DNA of 64,000 bases from Fibrobacter sp. UWB16 (lineage in GTDB: Bacteria; Fibrobacterota; Fibrobacteria; Fibrobacterales; Fibrobacteraceae): contig NZ_OCMS01000001.1 in the NCBI RefSeq assembly GCF_900215325.1, positions 806,001 to 870,000 of the forward strand. The letters run 5' to 3'. The translations under genes were made by a program, and so were the position numbers. How positions within the stretch are numbered: position 1 is the first letter of the stretch; every line of letters begins with the position of its first letter. The notes beneath the pieces are model-generated. The model did no database searches. It was not told the DNA's origin and worked only from the letters and a program-made list of their open reading frames with translations. This document shows positions 2,285-10,977 of the stretch, piece after piece.

Positions 2285-3979
2285 TTACTGTCTCGTAAGA
2301 GTCTTGTACTTGATGGGCTTCGGATTGTCGGCATCTTCGCCAAGGCGCTTGCGACGATCAGCTTCGTATTCGCTCCAGTTGCCTTCGAACCACACGACCT
2401 TCGAATCACCTTCGTAAGCGAGGATGTGCGTTGCAATACGGTCAAGGAACCAGCGGTCATGCGAGATGATCACGGCGCAGCCAGCGAACTTGAGGATAGC
2501 CTGTTCCAAAGCCTGCAATGTTTCGATATCCAAGTCGTTCGTCGGTTCGTCAAGGAACAAGAGGTTGCCCGGCTTCTGCAAGTTCTTTGCCATAAGCACA
2601 CGGTTGCGTTCACCACCAGAGAGCTGCGAGAGCTTCTTCTGCTGGGCAGCACCCGTGAAGTTGAAGAGACCGCAGTAAGCACGGCCATTCATCTTGCGGT
2701 CGCCCACCAAGATTTCGTCATTGCCACCCGTGATGGATTCCCAAACCGTCTTGGAATCGTCCAAGCTTTCGCGGCCCTGTTCCATACTGATGATTTCGAC
2801 AGTTTCGCCAATCTTGAGCGTACCGCCATCCGGCTTTTCCTGGCCCATAATCATCTTGAACAAAGTCGTTTTACCAGCACCGTTCGGACCGATAATGCCC
2901 ACGATACCCGAGCGCGGCAAGCTGAAGTTCAAATCGTCGAACAGCACCTTTTCGCCAAAGGCCTTCTGCAAATGTTCCGCCTGAATGACGACATCGCCCA
3001 AGCGCTTGCCATTTGCAATGTGGATCTGAGCCACCTTGATCTGTTCCTTGGAATCTTCCGCCAAGAGTTCTTCGTAAGCCTTGAGACGAGCCTTGCTCTT
3101 TGCCTGGCGAGCCTTCGGACTCTGCTTGACCCATTCCTGTTCACGAGCGAGACGCTTTTGACGGTCAGATTCGCCCTTTTCTTCGTTCTTCATGCGTTCA
3201 AGTTTCTGGTCAAGCCACTGGGCGTAATTGCCTTCCCAAGGAATGCCGCGACCGCGGTCAATTTCCAAAATCCAGTTCGTTACGTTGTCAAGGAAGTAAC
3301 GGTCATGCGTCACGAGAATCACAGAGCCCTTGTATTCACGGAGGTGGCGTTCGAGCCATGCAACCGTTTCGGCATCCAAGTGGTTCGTCGGTTCGTCCAA
3401 GAGCAACAAATCCGGTTCTTCGAGGAGCAAGCGGCAAAGAGCCACGCGGCGCTTTTCACCACCGGAGAGGTTCGTCACCGGCCAATCGCCCGGCGGGCAA
3501 CGGAGAGCGTCCATTGCAATTTCAATGTTGCGGTCGAGGCTCCACAAGTCCTGAGCGTCGATGATATCTTGAAGCTTTGCCTGTTCGTCGAGGAGCTTGT
3601 TCATCTCGTCGTCTTCCATCGGTTCAGCAAACTTCATGGAAATTTCGTTGAAGCGGTCGAGCACGGCTTGCTTTTTGGCCACCGCCTGCATCACGTTTTC
3701 CTTGACGGTCAAGTTCGGGTCAAGCTGCGGTTCCTGCGGCAAGTAGCCTGCGGTGCGGCCCGGTTCAATCCAAGCTTCGCCCTGGAATTCCTTGTCAATA
3801 CCCGCCATGATGCGGAGGAGCGTAGACTTACCGGCACCGTTCTGGCCGATAATACCAATCTTTGCGCCATAGTAGAAGCTCAAAGAAATATCCTTCAGCA
3901 CCTCTTTGTTAGGCGGATAGGACTTGGTCATTTTGTACATGTAGAAAACGAATTTTTCTGCTTTGTTTTGTTCGGCCAT
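2285..3979 (-). CDS. ettA: ABC-F translation factor EttA (energy-dependent translational throttle)
   Basis: The 564-residue protein has two ABC ATPase cassettes and no membrane segment. Walker A is at about residues 45-53 (GQNGAGKST) and again at about 361-369 (GPNGAGKTT). Signature and Walker B elements are LSGGEKRRVAL with LLLLDEPTNHLD near 170-200, and LSGGERNRVLM with LLFLDEPTNDLD near 455-490. The inter-domain linker is Lys/Arg-rich, as expected for the P-site tRNA interaction motif of ABC-F proteins. The opening (VFYMYKMTKSYPPNK) and the length match EttA rather than Uup or YheS. The family binds the ribosomal E site and couples the ATP/ADP ratio to entry into elongation. It appears to be a single-gene unit, with repeats on both sides. 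Confidence 0.95.
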   Translation of the reverse strand: MAEQNKAEKFVFYMYKMTKSYPPNKEVLKDISLSFYYGAKIGIIGQNGAGKSTLLRIMAGIDKEFQGEAWIEPGRTAGYLPQEPQLDPNLTVKENVMQAVAKKQAVLDRFNEISMKFAEPMEDDEMNKLLDEQAKLQDIIDAQDLWSLDRNIEIAMDALRCPPGDWPVTNLSGGEKRRVALCRLLLEEPDLLLLDEPTNHLDAETVAWLERHLREYKGSVILVTHDRYFLDNVTNWILEIDRGRGIPWEGNYAQWLDQKLERMKNEEKGESDRQKRLAREQEWVKQSPKARQAKSKARLKAYEELLAEDSKEQIKVAQIHIANGKRLGDVVIQAEHLQKAFGEKVLFDDLNFSLPRSGIVGIIGPNGAGKTTLFKMIMGQEKPDGGTLKIGETVEIISMEQGRESLDDSKTVWESITGGNDEILVGDRKMNGRAYCGLFNFTGAAQQKKLSQLSGGERNRVLMAKNLQKPGNLLFLDEPTNDLDIETLQALEQAILKFAGCAVIISHDRWFLDRIATHILAYEGDSKVVWFEGNWSEYEADRRKRLGEDADNPKPIKYKTLTRQ

Positions 3980-4058
3980 ATTTTACTCTCTTCGCTTCAA
4001 GAATGCGCGGACCTTCGGTCCATTGAGGTATGAGGTTAAAAGTTTTTCTCAGGACGAA

Positions 4059-4096
4059 GTCATCCTGAACGAATGTGAAGGATCCAGTTATTTTTT
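4059..4096. repeat. Dispersed element, GTCATCCTGA...GGATCCAGTTA type
   Basis: The sequence runs GTCATCCTGA, about ten variable bases, then AAGGATCCAGTTATTTTT. The same two conserved ends recur in other gaps (21828-21856 inverted, 26751-26811, 43801-43857, 49623-49680), always outside genes. Confidence 0.7.
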
Positions 4097-4130
4097 CCTT
4101 ATTTTCGTTGCGTTCAATATAGAAATATTT

Positions 4131-4778
4131 TTAGGCACGATTTGCAAGGTATTCCTTGATTTTCCCCTTGACAAAAGCCAAGTCCGGATTCGTGAGAATC
4201 GGAATCAGCGTATTGATTTCTTCGACAGGCTTATTCCACCATTTCCACTCGAGCATCAGCGCCGTCAATTCCTCGTCGAAACGATTGCGTATAAACTGCG
4301 CCGGATTCCCCACCACAATCGTGTAAGGTTCCACATCGCTCCCAACAACCGCATTTGCGCCGATAATCGCCCCATCGCCAATATGCACACCCGGCAAAAT
4401 CACAGCGTTCTGCCCAATCCACACATCGTTTCCAATCACCGTATCGCCCTTGAGCGGCAAATTTTCTTTGGCAGGAGGCGCCATATTCCACCCCTGCAAT
4501 GTGTAGAACGGGAACGTCGAAACCGCATTCATCTGATGGTTCGCCCCATTCATCACGAACTCCACCCCTGAGGCAATCTGGCAGAACTTTCCGATAATCA
4601 ACTTATCGTCATTCCACGGATACAGATGCGTCACGTGGCTCTCGAAATCGCTATCGGCAATGTAAGTGAAATCACCCACGACAATCTGCGGATTTTTGAG
4701 CGTCGGCTTCACGTAAATTTCCTTGTCGTAGCCCGCAATCGGGTGGACCGTCATCGGATCAGGGAGTATGTTTGACAT
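4131..4778 (-). CDS. Xenobiotic-type hexapeptide O-acetyltransferase (Vat/CatB-like)
   Basis: The 215-residue protein has the left-handed parallel beta-helix pattern of hexapeptide acetyltransferases, for example IGNDVWIGQNAVILPGV and IGDGAIIGANAVVG. It also carries the XAT-subgroup element with IGKFCQIASGV and MNGANHQMN; His81 corresponds to the catalytic His of Vat/CatB enzymes. Acetyl-CoA is the expected donor. The acceptor is unknown: Vat enzymes inactivate streptogramin A, but many relatives act on sugars or small metabolites. ATG 4778 is chosen because AGAGG lies just upstream of it; a TTG at 4796 in the same frame would put that site inside the gene. There are no obvious operon partners. 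Confidence 0.88.
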   Translation of the reverse strand: MSNILPDPMTVHPIAGYDKEIYVKPTLKNPQIVVGDFTYIADSDFESHVTHLYPWNDDKLIIGKFCQIASGVEFVMNGANHQMNAVSTFPFYTLQGWNMAPPAKENLPLKGDTVIGNDVWIGQNAVILPGVHIGDGAIIGANAVVGSDVEPYTIVVGNPAQFIRNRFDEELTALMLEWKWWNKPVEEINTLIPILTNPDLAFVKGKIKEYLANRA

Positions 4779-4837
4779 AGGGACCTCTATTAACAAATAT
4801 AAGCAAAAATTTAAAACTGATTTTGAGGATCAAGAAA

Positions 4838-4867
4838 CTACCCAATCCTACCCAATCCTACCCAATA
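4838..4867. repeat. Three direct repeats of a 10-bp unit
   Basis: The unit CTACCCAATC occurs at 4838-4847 and 4848-4857, then as CTACCCAATA at 4858-4867. The period is one helical turn, so a protein bound to each copy would sit on the same face of the DNA. The repeats could be iteron-like operator sites. Confidence 0.75.
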
Positions 4868-4913
4868 TAGCGAAAAAGAGCTTTTGATTCTCCATGACCT
4901 CAAAAACAAAAGA

Positions 4914-4991
4914 ATCTGCAACATATTGCAGATTTTCATTGACAAATCATATCAGGTCATACATTTTAATATAAAAACCGCAATATTTTGC
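4914..4991. promoter_or_regulatory. Paired GCAA-N4-TTGC palindromes around a putative promoter
   Basis: The first site, 4914-4933, has perfect 8-bp arms ATCTGCAA / TTGCAGAT around CATA. The second, 4980-4991, is GCAATATTTTGC with partly matching flanks. The centres are 62 bp apart, close to six helical turns. A TTGACA hexamer (4939-4944) lies between them, with AT-rich -10 candidates at 4960-4970. The layout fits two operators for one dimeric repressor acting on the downstream DUF262-RecQ unit. No regulator gene is adjacent. Confidence 0.5.
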
Positions 4992-5142
4992 AGGTTTCAG
5001 CGTATTTCGTATTGATTTAATGGTTGATATTGAAAAGAAACTGAAGCTATAGAAGATTTTTTGCATTTTGAAATTTTATGACATCAACATGATGTATATT
5101 TGGGAAAAATACACGAAAAACTGATTTTTATACAGGCGCCCG

Positions 5143-6504
5143 ATGAGTGAAACTATTTTAAAACCAGAAATTATTTCAGTCAAGCAATTACTAGCCATTC
5201 CAAATTTGCGAATTCCTGAATACCAGCGTCCGTACAAATGGACGGAAAAAAATGTCAATCAACTTATTGACGACATTCGCGACAACCTTGACAAATCAGC
5301 CTACCGCATCGGAACACTCGTCATCCACAATAACAAGGAAGAAGGAAAACTTGATATTGTCGATGGGCAGCAACGAACAATAACATTATTTCTTCTTGCT
5401 ATTAAAATTCTTCCTCTTATCGAAGAAAATAACGACCTACAAAGACACGTTTTCTTACGAGGCGATTCCATCAATAGTTTCAAGCCTCAATCAACACTCA
5501 AGTTTTCCAACGTTATTACCAAGCAAAATGTCCAGAAGAATTTCAAGGCTATGGAACGTAGAAAATCTGATTTAGAAAAAGCAGATTTCTTAAAATTCTT
5601 CTTTAATCAATGCCAATTCGTGAAAATTGTAATTGACGACGTTTCAGAAGCATTCCAGTTTTTCGATTCTCAAAACGCTCGCGGCAAGGACTTGGAACCG
5701 CACGATTTGTTGAAAGCGTATCACCTTCGTGAAATGAACAATTCCTCTACAGAGCAAGAACGTCTAAACGCGGTAAAGAAATGGGAAAATATGGAGCCCA
5801 ACGAGTTGTCCAGTTTATTCTCACAATACCTTTATCGCATCAAAAACTGGGGTCGCGATCTATCGGCGCGGTACTTTACGAAAGACGATGTAGACACATT
5901 CAAAGGTATCAGCCCAAATCTTGAAGAAGACTTCCCATACACAAAACTTTATCGTATCGCCCATTATTACGTTGACGAATTCAATTCATCTTGCCATTCC
6001 AAAATTTTGCATGAATCATTCGATTTTCCATTTCAGATTGATCAGGTAATCATCAATGGGAAACGCTTCTTCGAATATGTATCCCATTACGCCCAAATGC
6101 GTGAAGAAATAGAAAGCAACAGATCACATGAAATTCTAGACATTATACATAATTATGATGGATATAACAGGACTGGAGACCGTTATGTACGCAATCTATT
6201 CTATTGCGCCCTAATTGACTATATCGATAAATTCGGTCAAAAAAACATCGATCGCATTGTAGAGAAGCTGTTTATTTGGGCTTATACACTACGATTAAAG
6301 TTGCATAGTGTCGACATTGAATCAATGGACAACTACGCATTAAATTTGGGACATTCACAGATTGCGATGTTTAAAATAATCCGAGACGCAAATAAGCCAC
6401 AGGATATTTTAAATGTAGAATTGGGCACTCTTTCTGATACCAAAGCAACCAAAGAAGAAAAAATTATTGCGAAATTTAAAACATTAGGTTATTATAATGG
6501 CTAA
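5143..6504 (+). CDS. DUF262 protein (GmrS-like), first gene of putative defence operon
   Basis: The 453-residue protein starts with a DUF262 domain: IPEYQRPYKW (24-33), DGQQR (74-78) and the later FDSQNARGKDLEPHDLLKAY element (about 175-194). In GmrSD, SspE and BrxU the DGQQR motif belongs to the ParB-like nucleotide-hydrolysing domain that controls DNA cleavage. No DUF1524 nuclease motif is visible in the C-terminal half, so this looks like a sensor or regulatory subunit. Its stop overlaps the start of the next gene by 8 bases, implying translational coupling. Codon use is AT-rich compared with ettA or valS, which suggests horizontal acquisition. It is soluble and lacks a signal peptide. Confidence 0.85.
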   Translation: MSETILKPEIISVKQLLAIPNLRIPEYQRPYKWTEKNVNQLIDDIRDNLDKSAYRIGTLVIHNNKEEGKLDIVDGQQRTITLFLLAIKILPLIEENNDLQRHVFLRGDSINSFKPQSTLKFSNVITKQNVQKNFKAMERRKSDLEKADFLKFFFNQCQFVKIVIDDVSEAFQFFDSQNARGKDLEPHDLLKAYHLREMNNSSTEQERLNAVKKWENMEPNELSSLFSQYLYRIKNWGRDLSARYFTKDDVDTFKGISPNLEEDFPYTKLYRIAHYYVDEFNSSCHSKILHESFDFPFQIDQVIINGKRFFEYVSHYAQMREEIESNRSHEILDIIHNYDGYNRTGDRYVRNLFYCALIDYIDKFGQKNIDRIVEKLFIWAYTLRLKLHSVDIESMDNYALNLGHSQIAMFKIIRDANKPQDILNVELGTLSDTKATKEEKIIAKFKTLGYYNG

Positions 6505-8524
6505 CAATCTCACACCATTGTCAATCAAGACCCTTTTTGAAGAAGAAAAAATCCGTTACGAGATTCCAATTTATCAACGAGACTATGCTTGGACAGAGCC
6601 TCAAATCCGTCAGCTAATTTTAGACATTGCGGACTATGCAAAAGATAAAAGTAATTGCAATTATTACATCGGAACACTAATTGTCTACGAACGTAAGGAC
6701 GATTACGAAACCATTTATGAAACAATAGACGGCCAGCAAAGACTAACCACATTAAGCATCATTCTAAATCTCTTATACAATAAAAATAAAGAATTAGATT
6801 GGTTCCATAATGAATTAGGTTGGTTCCGCGGGAATATATTGTCTTTTGCAAGTCGCCCAAGATCCACAGAATCGCTAAAGCTTCTTTCTAATTTGGATAA
6901 GCAATCATACGATAACCCAAACATGAACATCATACAAGGTTATCGTGATGCAGAAAAAGCCTTATCGCAAATTCTAAAAGAAAAGAATCTTGAAGAAAAG
7001 AACTTTGTTAAATACTTAGCAAATCAAGTCTACATTTTACGAGTTCCAGTTCCACGCGATACTGACTTGAACCATTATTTTGAGATCATGAACAGCCGTG
7101 GAGAACAGCTTGAAAAGCACGAAGTTCTTAAGGCTCAATGTTTAAAATGCCTCGATGTGAAAGACCGTGTGGCCTTCAATAAAATTTGGGAAGCAGCGGC
7201 CAATATGGAACGCTATATTCAATATGGGTTTTCTAAAAACGAGCGCAACGCTATTTTCGGAGGCAATGAAAAAGACGGAAACCTATGGGATGTTCTAGAC
7301 AACAACCCTGAGCATGTTTACGAGAATCTTCACAACTCAAATGAAGAAAGTGAAAGCGAAGAAAGTCTCGAAGCCATCGCAAAAAATGACGCCAATATCA
7401 GCGTAAAAGAAGAAGATAACGAAGATACAAACGTCCGTTTTAACACCGTTATCAATTTCTCAAATTTTCTACTTCATGTTTTACGCATTCAAACAAAAAC
7501 AGACATTCCTCTAGACGACAAGCGTTTGCTCGATTTGTTCAAGCCTTACGTAAAATCAGACAACCCTGAGGCGAATCGACAGTTTGTCAAAGAGTTCGGC
7601 TACAATCTTCTAAAAATGAAATACCTATATGACAAATACATTATCAAACGTGAATTTGTCGGTGGAAGCGATCGATGGAGTTTAAAGCGCGTTCGCATTT
7701 ACGAAGGTAAAAAGCGTTCTTATTCATATGTCGGAACATTTAGCGATACATCAAATCCTGATATTGAAAGCGAAGAAAATCGCGAAATCATAATGTTGCT
7801 TTCGATGTTCCACGTATCAACGCCAACGCTTGTGTATAAGCACTGGCTAAACGGCGCTTTAAAATGGTGTTTTGAGCAGTCTGAACCGATTACAGCAAAA
7901 GCCTACAAAGAATATTTGGAAAAGATGGCAGAAGCGTTCTTACGAGATCGTTTCCTGTCCAAATCACCACTGGATTACTTTGAAATTATTTATAAAAATT
8001 CCTGTAATGTTCAAAACATTGACAATAATCAATTAAACACAGACGCATTAAACGCAGGAACAGCCGTAGAAAACTTCATTTTCAACTATCTGGATTATTT
8101 GCTTTGGCAAAATTTCAGGACGACAAAATCTGCATTTGATGTTATCGGTGACAATGAAAAATTAAGAAATGATTCAAGAATAGCCTCATTTGAATTCACA
8201 TTCAGAAGTTCTGTGGAACATTATTATCCGCAAAATCCTATTGAAGGCCCTGATTATAAAATCAGTAAAGAGAATCTTGATTGCTTTGGCAACCTTTGCC
8301 TAATCAGCAACTCAAAGAATTCTCGATTGAGCAATTATATGCCACTCGCCAAAAAAGAACATTATGAGCAAAGTGAAAATCTTGACAGCATCAAGCAAAG
8401 AATCATGATGGCTTATACCGAATGGGACGAAGGCAAACAGTTAATGGACAAGAATGGAGTAAATGAAATTCAGGACCATTATGAAAAAATGGTAAAAGTA
8501 TTACGTGTAGATAACAATTCCTAG
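6497..8524 (+). CDS. DUF262-DUF1524 protein (GmrSD-like putative nuclease)
   Basis: The 675-residue protein carries both halves of a GmrSD-type enzyme. The N-terminal DUF262 has IPIYQRDYAW (23-32), DGQQR (78-82) and FEIMNSRGEQLEKHEVLKA (about 195-213). The C-terminal DUF1524 has EHYYPQNP with His575, followed by CFGNLCLISNSKNSRLSN (about 597-614), the H...N...N arrangement of this His-Me-finger nuclease family. GmrSD and BrxU cleave modified phage DNA, and SspE acts on phage in phosphorothioation systems. The target here is unknown. An acidic low-complexity insert (about residues 275-305) separates the domains. The gene overlaps the preceding DUF262 gene by 8 bases and ends 15 bases before a recQ-type gene. 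Its base composition is AT-rich, like its partner. Confidence 0.88.
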   Translation: MANNLTPLSIKTLFEEEKIRYEIPIYQRDYAWTEPQIRQLILDIADYAKDKSNCNYYIGTLIVYERKDDYETIYETIDGQQRLTTLSIILNLLYNKNKELDWFHNELGWFRGNILSFASRPRSTESLKLLSNLDKQSYDNPNMNIIQGYRDAEKALSQILKEKNLEEKNFVKYLANQVYILRVPVPRDTDLNHYFEIMNSRGEQLEKHEVLKAQCLKCLDVKDRVAFNKIWEAAANMERYIQYGFSKNERNAIFGGNEKDGNLWDVLDNNPEHVYENLHNSNEESESEESLEAIAKNDANISVKEEDNEDTNVRFNTVINFSNFLLHVLRIQTKTDIPLDDKRLLDLFKPYVKSDNPEANRQFVKEFGYNLLKMKYLYDKYIIKREFVGGSDRWSLKRVRIYEGKKRSYSYVGTFSDTSNPDIESEENREIIMLLSMFHVSTPTLVYKHWLNGALKWCFEQSEPITAKAYKEYLEKMAEAFLRDRFLSKSPLDYFEIIYKNSCNVQNIDNNQLNTDALNAGTAVENFIFNYLDYLLWQNFRTTKSAFDVIGDNEKLRNDSRIASFEFTFRSSVEHYYPQNPIEGPDYKISKENLDCFGNLCLISNSKNSRLSNYMPLAKKEHYEQSENLDSIKQRIMMAYTEWDEGKQLMDKNGVNEIQDHYEKMVKVLRVDNNS

Positions 8525-8539
8525 ACCCATTTCAAAATA

Positions 8540-10387
8540 ATGCCCACCGCTCACGAAATTCTAAAATTTGTTTTTGGCTACGATGCATTCCGCCCCATGC
8601 AAGAGGAAATCATCGAGCATGTCGTATCGCGTAAAGATGCGCTTGTGCTGATGCCGACTGGCGGCGGAAAGTCCATTTGCTACCAAATTCCAGCCTTGAT
8701 GTTCAAGGGCATCACGGTCGTTATTTCACCGTTGATTTCACTGATGAAAGACCAGGTGGACGCGCTGAATGCAAATGGCATTGGTGCAGATGCACTGAAC
8801 AGCAACAACGAAGAAGGCGAAAATGCGGCCATCCGTCAGCGTTGCAAAGCAGGGCAAACCAAGATTCTCTACATTTCGCCGGAGCGTTTGCAGCGGGAAA
8901 TTCCGTGGTTGCAAAATCACTTGAACGTTTCGCTATTTGCTATTGACGAGGCGCACTGCATTTCGCAATGGGGGCACGATTTTCGTCCAGAATACACGCA
9001 GCTCGGCGGACTGCACCAAGCGTTCCCAAGCGCAACAATCATGGCGCTGACAGCTACGGCAGATAAACTCACAAAAGAAGATATTGTCCGGCAGCTGAAC
9101 CTGCGCGACTTTAGACTTTTCGTGAGTTCGTTCGACCGTCCGAATTTAAGTCTCGATGTGCGGCGCGGTTATTCCGCTTCCGAAAAGCTGAAAGCCATTT
9201 TGTCCATCATTTCAAAGCACAAGCACGAATCGGGAATCATCTATTGCCTTTCGCGCAAGAGCACCGAAAAAGTCGCCGAAGAACTCATCAACACAGGCGT
9301 TTACGCAAAGGCATACCATGCGGGGCTAACCGCCGAAGAACGCAACAATGTGCAAGAGGATTTCATCAACGACAATATCGATGTCGTGTGTGCGACAATC
9401 GCATTCGGCATGGGCATCGACAAGAGCAATGTCCGTTATGTCATCCATTACAATCTCCCCAAGAGCATCGAGAGCTTTTATCAAGAAATCGGGCGCGCGG
9501 GCCGCGACGGCCTCCCCTCCGAAACCGTGCTGTTCTACAACTTCCAGGACATCATCACGCTCCGCAAATTTGTAAACGAGAGCGGCCAGCGAGACATCAA
9601 CTCCGAGAAGCTCGACCGCATGCAGGAATACGCCGAATCACAAGTTTGCCGTCGTCGCATTTTGCTCAACTACTTCGGCGAAAACAACAATAGCAACTGC
9701 GGGAATTGCGACATCTGCAAGCACCCGCCACAGCGTTTCAACGGCACGATTCTCGTGCAAAAGGCGCTCTCGGCCATAAAACGTACTGGCGAGCATATCG
9801 GCTTTTCAATGACCGCCGACATTCTCAAGGGAACGCTCAGCGACGAGATCGTCCAAAAGGGTTACGACAAGCTCAAGACTTTCGGTGTCGGTAGCAAAAC
9901 AACGCTCAAGCATTGGCACGATTACATGCTGCAGATGTTGCAACTCGGTTACATCGAAATTGCCTACAACGAGAACAACCACCTTAAAATCACCGAGAGC
10001 GGTAACGAAGTCCTCTTCGGGAAGAAAACGGCAGAACTTGCCATCGCCGCAAAAGCAGAAGCAAAGGAAAACGCAAAACCGGGAAGCGGTCACGGCGCAT
10101 TTTCGCGTACTTCTGCCGGCAGTACACGCACAACCTACGCGCACTATTCAGACTCCGACGAAGACAATTCCCTATTCGAAGCTCTGCGAAAAGTCCGCAG
10201 GCAAATCGCCGAAGAGAACAACTGGCCCGCCTACGTCGTACTTTCTGACCGTACGCTAAAAGACCTCGCCTACAAGGCGCCTATTTCCATAAACGAGCTG
10301 CAAGATGTATTCGGCTTTGGCGAAATGAAAATCCGGAAATTCGGGCAGCAATTCGTAGACGCCATCTGCGATTACATGAGGCAATAA
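8540..10387 (+). CDS. recQ: RecQ-family ATP-dependent DNA helicase
   Basis: The 615-residue protein has complete RecQ architecture. It shows Walker A MPTGGGKS (39-46), DEAH box IDEAHCISQWGHDFRPEY (about 134-151) and motif VI QEIGRAGRDG (about 315-324). The RQC zinc-binding Cys set follows (CRRR, then C..C..C within NCGNCDICKHP, about 367-395), and an HRDC domain covers about 540-613. RecQ enzymes unwind DNA 3' to 5' in recombination and repair. The gene sits 15 bases after the DUF262-DUF1524 gene with no terminator between, so it is probably transcribed with the pair. Its codon use is closer to the housekeeping genes than theirs, so it may instead be a resident recQ behind which the pair inserted. 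A hairpin terminator follows. Confidence 0.95.
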   Translation: MPTAHEILKFVFGYDAFRPMQEEIIEHVVSRKDALVLMPTGGGKSICYQIPALMFKGITVVISPLISLMKDQVDALNANGIGADALNSNNEEGENAAIRQRCKAGQTKILYISPERLQREIPWLQNHLNVSLFAIDEAHCISQWGHDFRPEYTQLGGLHQAFPSATIMALTATADKLTKEDIVRQLNLRDFRLFVSSFDRPNLSLDVRRGYSASEKLKAILSIISKHKHESGIIYCLSRKSTEKVAEELINTGVYAKAYHAGLTAEERNNVQEDFINDNIDVVCATIAFGMGIDKSNVRYVIHYNLPKSIESFYQEIGRAGRDGLPSETVLFYNFQDIITLRKFVNESGQRDINSEKLDRMQEYAESQVCRRRILLNYFGENNNSNCGNCDICKHPPQRFNGTILVQKALSAIKRTGEHIGFSMTADILKGTLSDEIVQKGYDKLKTFGVGSKTTLKHWHDYMLQMLQLGYIEIAYNENNHLKITESGNEVLFGKKTAELAIAAKAEAKENAKPGSGHGAFSRTSAGSTRTTYAHYSDSDEDNSLFEALRKVRRQIAEENNWPAYVVLSDRTLKDLAYKAPISINELQDVFGFGEMKIRKFGQQFVDAICDYMRQ

Positions 10388-10418
10388 AAAATCCCGCAGC
10401 ACACGCCGCGAGATTTTT
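10386..10418. terminator. Probable bidirectional terminator between recQ and ompH
   Basis: AAAATCcCGC and GCGaGATTTTT pair across a ten-base loop, with one mismatch inside the stem. An A run lies on the left and a T run on the right. Convergent genes end on both sides. Confidence 0.6.
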
Positions 10419-10421
10419 CAC

Positions 10422-10455
10422 AAGGAGGTGCCCGCTCAGCGGCGGGCATGACAAA
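10422..10455. repeat. Dispersed hairpin element (TGCCCGC type)
   Basis: AAGGAGGTGCCCGC, TCAGC and GGCGGGCATGACAAA form the same hairpin layout as 2246-2277. It lies directly beyond the recQ terminator. Confidence 0.7.
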
Positions 10456-10461
10456 TTGTTA

Positions 10462-10977
10462 TTATCTATTATTCAAATAGTTCAGCACCTTGTTCGTAAG
10501 GTCGTTTTCCTTTTTCCAGAAGAGCACGGCGCCGGTGGCACGGTCAATGACCATGTCATAACCTTCCTGCAACGCAATTTCGTTTACCGCCTTGCGAATG
10601 AGCTGGATAATCGGAGCACTCACCTTTTCGTTTTCGGTGATGAGTTCCCCGTTACGGCCATAGACGCGGTCAATGAACGACTTGAGTTCCGTATCCTTCT
10701 TGTTGTATTCGGCTTCAAGTTCGCGCTTCTTTTCGTCAGAGAGCATCAGGACCTGCTTATCAAGCTTTTCCTTAATGGCAGCAAGTTCCTTCTGCAAGAG
10801 GTTCGCCTGCTGTTCCCACTTAGCCACTTGACGGTCATATTCTTCCTGAGCCTTCTTGGTGCCCTTGAATCCGTCAAAGATAATCTTTGAATCCACATGG
10901 GCAATGCGAAGACCGTCTTCAGCAAAGCTCACGCATGCAAAGACAACCGAAAGTAAAACTATCAACTTGCGAATCAT
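10462..10977 (-). CDS. OmpH/Skp-family periplasmic chaperone
   Basis: The 171-residue protein has a cleavable signal peptide (MIRKLIVLLSVVFACVSFAE). The first beta strand is typical of the family (LRIAHVDSKIIFDGFKG), then comes a long charged coiled-coil stretch (about residues 42-120), and the end returns to beta-strand character (DMVIDRATGAVLFWKKENDLT). Skp-type trimers hold unfolded outer-membrane proteins in the periplasm on their way to the BAM complex. The gene begins 18 bases after bamA in the same direction with a clear GGAGGAG ribosome-binding site, the classical bamA-skp arrangement. Confidence 0.92.
   Translation of the reverse strand: MIRKLIVLLSVVFACVSFAEDGLRIAHVDSKIIFDGFKGTKKAQEEYDRQVAKWEQQANLLQKELAAIKEKLDKQVLMLSDEKKRELEAEYNKKDTELKSFIDRVYGRNGELITENEKVSAPIIQLIRKAVNEIALQEGYDMVIDRATGAVLFWKKENDLTNKVLNYLNNR

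Follow-up and report, generated by a model that had tools for sequence, protein, structure and literature searches.

The closest described systems are the HipBST toxin-antitoxin operons of E. coli O127 and Legionella pneumophila, in which the genes follow the order hipB-hipS-hipT (PMC8262856). HipB of the E. coli system has been reported to be both required and sufficient for repression of its promoter (PMC10627512). For Legionella HipB, three 18-nt operators with 53-bp gaps were reported in 2023 and called the first HipBST operators; the same report mentions homologues of the Legionella system in the Fibrobacterota-Chlorobiota-Bacteroidota group and states that HipBST operators differ from those of HipBA (PMC10653801). 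HipBA of E. coli resembles the systems treated here in having an HTH antitoxin with palindromic promoter operators (PMC8262856); unlike HipBA, the relatives of our strain encode HipB, HipS and HipT as separate proteins. The type IV restriction systems of the GmrSD (DUF262) kind are also represented, since both proteins encoded beside the operators match GmrSD_N and the second also matches GmrSD_C; at other loci, in contrast, the two stand as neighbouring genes without Mrr or RecQ, and the homologues lack the operators.

We analysed a window of Fibrobacter sp. UWB16 (the whole stretch of 64,000 nucleotides introduced above). We consider it very probable that its positions 4913-4997 once belonged, as promoter and operators, to a hipBST operon that has been deleted, and that they are now orphaned; the sites are probably unoccupied.

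Paired palindromes and their linkage to hipB

The first operator (4913-4934, no strand) is a perfect palindrome, AATCTGCAA-CATA-TTGCAGATT, with the core GCAACATATTGC at 4918-4929, and it is kept before hipB in relatives; it extends by one base on each side beyond the form first reported, ATCTGCAA-CATA-TTGCAGAT at 4914-4933. The second (4980-4991, no strand) is GCAATATTTTGC (GCAA-TATT-TTGC). With centres at 4923.5 and 4985.5, the palindromes lie 62 bp apart, and the first-pass annotation, which had described two GCAA-N4-TTGC palindromes at this distance with a TTGACA box between them, was accurate in both coordinates and letters. On its own, GCAA-N4-TTGC does not stand out: the window has 3 copies where 2.53 are expected, and the genome of 3.56 Mb has 142, the reversed pattern used as a control giving 69. 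It is the extended form and the pairing of the palindromes, not the 4-bp half-site, that go beyond chance, as seen in a 23-nt direct repeat, in folding z-scores near -5 on either strand and in the exact pair pattern treated below.

To the right of the first site lies TTGACA, the -35 box that once served hipBST (4939-4944, plus strand), followed after 17 bp by the -10 box CATTTT (4962-4967, plus strand), just 3' of which stands the second operator. A sigma-70-like scan reported nothing on the plus strand at 4939, since CATTTT shares only 3 of its 6 positions with TATAAT; TTGACA-17-CATTTT was identified through comparison with relatives. The intergenic region, used as a DNA query, matched relatives, several of the matches being limited to about 4913-4997; genomes G006, G007, G019, G025 and G031 were also among those with matches. 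By this comparison, the arrangement operator, TTGACA, 17 bp, -10 box, operator proved homologous to the promoters of intact hipB-hipS-hipT operons in related genomes.

The matched promoters of relatives sit directly 5' of operons of three genes, whose products measure 68 aa (an HTH protein), about 110 aa and 333 aa; in G014 they were assigned by Pfam to HTH_3, Couple_hipA (the HipA N-terminal domain) and HipA_C. Both the gene order and the domains are those of the HipBST operons of E. coli O127 and L. pneumophila. Among solved structures, the 333-aa protein was matched best by HipT of Legionella (E 2.2e-24), followed by 7ab3-7ab5 (E about 1e-11); matches to HipA-family toxins were weaker (E 1.7e-7). 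The Legionella system is also similar in having several inverted-repeat operators around its promoter (PMC10653801); it differs in that the Fibrobacter promoters carry two operators with the GCAAYATNTTGC core 61-63 bp apart in place of three 18-nt operators with 53-bp gaps, and in that the genes themselves are gone from the window.

The exact pair, defined as GCAANATNTTGC-N(40-62)-GCAANATNTTGC, was searched for in 61 genomes of the genus, our own included. It was found at 24 places in 23 of them, and once (the window) in our own genome; the reversed control gave no match in any of the 61. The core letters at these places are fixed by the search pattern and are hence no proof of conservation. 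The narrow spacing (61 bp at 8 places, 62 bp at 14 and 63 bp at 2) and a TATTTT box 17 bp from TTGACA are informative, as neither was demanded by the pattern. TTGACA is present at 21 of the 24 places (G013, G034 and G069 contig 2 lack it), and at 19 of these 21 the -10 box is TATTTT, with CATTTT limited to the window and G001. The nine other GCAANATNTTGC sites of our genome fall within ORFs of at least 90 aa (seven) or near gene starts, with the spacer AATT (two).

The pair accompanies hipB, which was detected (E <= 1e-5) at 28 loci in 26 of the 61 genomes. Pair and gene occur together in 22 genomes, and among the 35 genomes without hipB only that of the window carries the pair (Fisher p = 1.4e-11, a value to be taken as a guide only, as the genomes are related). 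The exact pair precedes 23 of the 28 hipB loci, and the 24th place is the window, from which hipB has been deleted. At the hipB loci of G024, G072 and G076 an exact site is paired with one that differs by a single base, while that of G075 has the proximal operator alone, with no HipT found there (some of these loci are short). In G001, G013 and G034 the operators precede hipB, with HipS and HipT not found, and HipS was not found on G069 contig 2 (again, some loci are short). A chance origin of the pair was ruled out by its co-occurrence with hipB in 22 other genomes.

These data uphold part of the layout proposed in the first-pass annotation: the sites seem to be genuine paired operators that flank a promoter at conserved spacing, but they belong to a hipBST promoter and not to a DUF262-RecQ unit. 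The GCAAYATNTTGC pair looks like an undescribed class of HipBST operator; no description of this motif was found in the HipBST and Hip papers searched, which is not proof that there is none.

G069 contig 3 has, at its hipB locus (L193), a variant motif instead of the normal pair. This is a second, diverged hipBST within one genome, the promoter of which carries the repeated variant motif GGAAATATATTAC; it is possible that operator and HipB are changing together there. To the left of the first operator, the window contains a tandem 10-bp repeat, CTACCCAATC (4838-4867), which differs in copy number in G001 and G004, and similar stretches were noted elsewhere in G014 (L085), G003 and G015.

Remnants of the operon and the probable present promoter

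No match to hipB, hipS or hipT was found at the window locus, where only remnants of the two operon ends persist, so that the three genes of a functional HipBST operon are missing; what is present is a region homologous to hipBST promoters, with paired inverted repeats at the spacing conserved over the 24 places. The left remnant (4917-5032, plus strand) comprises the promoter, the operators and the hipB leader and is 78% identical to G014; its operator stretch is identical in G001, whose hipB is intact. The right remnant (5046-5110, plus strand) consists of the end of hipT and the segment following it, with 86% identity to G014 from the hipT stop onward, and about 1.54 kb of G014 lying between the two is absent from the window. 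A predicted frame of ten codons (5020-5052, plus strand), read from the sequence, runs from the hipB leader into the last codons and the stop of hipT. Further 3', the last codons of a deleted Mrr-like gene can be recognized (5107-5124, plus strand), positions 5107-5142 being identical at 36 of 36 to G004, where this gene is whole.

Two sister loci show other states of this region. G001 has the same promoter and an intact hipB without hipS and hipT. In G004 the operators have been lost and the first codons of hipB are fused to the last codons of hipT; an intact Mrr-like gene follows, and then the same DUF262 pair (DUF262a 99% identical). The state of the window may thus be read as the outcome of successive deletions, of hipBST and also of mrr. 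Partial gain in other lineages is less likely, since both operon ends persist in the window. Positions 4900-5032 are 99% identical to G001, compared with about 90% for the flanking genes. This could be a sign of continuing constraint, as opposed to decay; an explanation by recent exchange is equally good.

In the relatives, HipB, the HTH protein, presumably binds both GCAAYATNTTGC sites, one just 5' of the -35 box and one just 3' of the -10 box, at 61-63 bp or about six helical turns, and would thereby repress hipB-hipS-hipT. Deletion of hipBST in the window would have joined the promoter and leader to the 3' end of hipT, with neighbouring mrr deleted as well. The sites are probably unoccupied because no close HipB is left in the genome.

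The DUF262 genes are most likely transcribed from a promoter of their own, of which TATATTTG (5095-5102, plus strand; 5 in the window against 1.31 expected) is the probable -10 region. It ends 40 bp 5' of the start of DUF262a and also precedes different cargo genes in G004, G014 and G073, from which we infer that it is the promoter of the cargo. Just 5' of TATATTTG there is a short perfect inverted repeat, ACATCA-ACA-TGATGT (5081-5095); G004 and G014 have no perfect repeat at this place.

A different fate of the old promoter, which we regard as rather unlikely, is its capture: the deletion would have fused it to the DUF262 pair, now expressed constitutively from 4939-4967 with the repressor gone. 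The promoter does point in the plus-strand direction with TTGACA at the right spacing, no plus-strand terminator-like site lies between it and DUF262a, and a close HipB is absent from the genome. Its -10 box is CATTTT, however, where TATTTT stands at 19 of 21 places, and the other promoter motif, at 5095-5102, is nearer to the genes. Under the orphaned-promoter reading, the old promoter would perhaps contribute a weak, unrepressed read-through into DUF262a and DUF262b.

The variable slot and the search for a regulator

DUF262a (5143-6504, plus strand; GmrSD_N and DUF7834) and DUF262b (6497-8524, plus strand; GmrSD_N and GmrSD_C) are followed by recQ (8540-10387, plus strand; TIGR01389 above cut-off), and on the left, divergent from the operators, lies a gene for a Vat-like hexapeptide acetyltransferase (4131-4778, minus strand; Pfam Hexapep, NCBIfam Vat models below cut-off). 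The first-pass annotation treated the pair and recQ as one unit. Among 23 other DUF262 loci, all of which contained a DUF262b-like match, neither RecQ (0/23) nor Mrr (0/23) was found, several of these loci being on short contigs and one, L177, a fragment. RecQ (E <= 1e-100) occurs in 15 of 38 genomes, including 7 of 24 of the same genus; elsewhere recQ follows McrBC, fused GmrSD or YhcG genes, and the sequences 5' of it differ among six genomes, except that the window equals G004. Given these varied neighbours and the lack of RecQ at the 23 loci, the supposed DUF262-RecQ unit is therefore a local neighbourhood in a variable defence slot, with recQ as a right-hand neighbour that is not specific to the pair.

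This slot, the interval vat-recQ-ompH (window 4778-10462 and its relatives), holds hipBST and restriction genes (McrBC, Mrr, GmrSD, YhcG) that vary from genome to genome within one genus. It has vat on the left (also in G001, G004, G014, G019, G061, G067 and G073) and recQ, where present, on the right. The contents were typed by Pfam in G014, G001, G004 and G006. In G014 and G073 the slot carries hipBST, a 266-aa protein without a Pfam match, an AAA_5 protein (two frames in G073) and McrC; in G001, hipB, a fused GmrSD and DUF3990; in G004, Mrr and the GmrSD pair; and in G006, hipBST and a YhcG nuclease before recQ, vat not being found on the available DNA. G020 has vat and recQ with neither hipBST nor restriction genes between them, and in G019 and G061 an OmpH-like gene accompanies vat and hipBST, recQ not being found.

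The idea put forward in the first-pass annotation, that the operators silence a DUF262-RecQ unit through a regulator encoded elsewhere or through one of the DUF262 proteins, is in our estimation very unlikely. In its favour stood the position of the sites, which bracket a promoter 5' of the genes at helical spacing. We examined up to 600 bp upstream of 20 DUF262a homologues (only 180-227 bp being available for three) and found GCAA-N4-TTGC at none, so that operators proper to the DUF262 genes are not supported; this is the outcome by which the first-pass annotation itself would have its proposal refuted. These 20 exclude the fragment L177, the matches more distant from DUF262 (L024-L033, L044-L045), locus L017 of G004, and L018, which is probably the same contig as L160; L022, L023 and L043, searched whole, contained no palindrome. 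Autoregulation by DUF262 finds no support because the sites accompany hipB rather than DUF262, and RecQ is, as described, not tied to the pair.

A dedicated regulator elsewhere was not seen either. In our own genome HipT was not found at E <= 10, in a search without an internal positive control; HipB was not found at E <= 1e-5, where the same search was positive in 26 genomes; and HipA_C did not exceed its cut-off, as it did in 4 of 14 control genomes. This search was sequence-based and could miss a diverged regulator. The best remaining HTH protein, a weak relative of HipB that speaks for a regulator in trans, is 32% identical to it (E 3.3e-4) and encoded at a separate locus at about 956 kb, beside a sub-threshold HipA_C match (26.2 bits against a cut-off of 30.5); one GCAA-N4-TTGC with another spacer occurs there, and the pair is absent. 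We rejected it as the trans regulator in view of its low identity, its different locus and the missing pair. At about 3328-5307 of the same locus (L159, C1:952000-960000), a 321-aa HipA-like frame and an HTH gene of 72 aa face each other; a 77-aa gene and a DUF3990-like gene, so labelled by its resemblance to the G001 protein, adjoin them.

That the hairpins are RNA elements or intrinsic terminators instead of DNA operators is scarcely credible and was rejected: both palindromes fold (z about -5 on both strands) and minus-strand terminator-like scores are in excess (2 found against 0.2 expected), but no annotated minus-strand transcript enters this divergent intergenic region, before hipB genes the sites stand on either side of a promoter at a fixed distance, the first lies 5' of the -35 box and hence outside the transcript, and no Rfam family was matched at its gathering score.

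Toxin-antitoxin and restriction genes in one slot

A further, rather improbable proposal concerns the intact islands, where the hipBST promoter might also feed the adjoining type IV restriction genes (McrBC, Mrr-GmrSD), so that HipB, through one operator pair, would couple a translation-stopping kinase to restriction. If this were true, loss of the toxin-antitoxin genes in the window strain would have left a restriction pair under an unrepressed promoter, which an incoming HipB could still silence.

The locus illustrates how what convincingly looks like a "regulated defence operon" can turn out to be an evolutionary scar, in which operators have outlived the genes that they once controlled. 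With the GCAAYATNTTGC pair, 61-63 bp apart, a specific operator that can be tested is defined for HipBST in this genus of Fibrobacteraceae, and at the vat-recQ slot, where hipBST has exchangeable restriction genes for neighbours, one may ask whether toxin-antitoxin and restriction systems are co-regulated.
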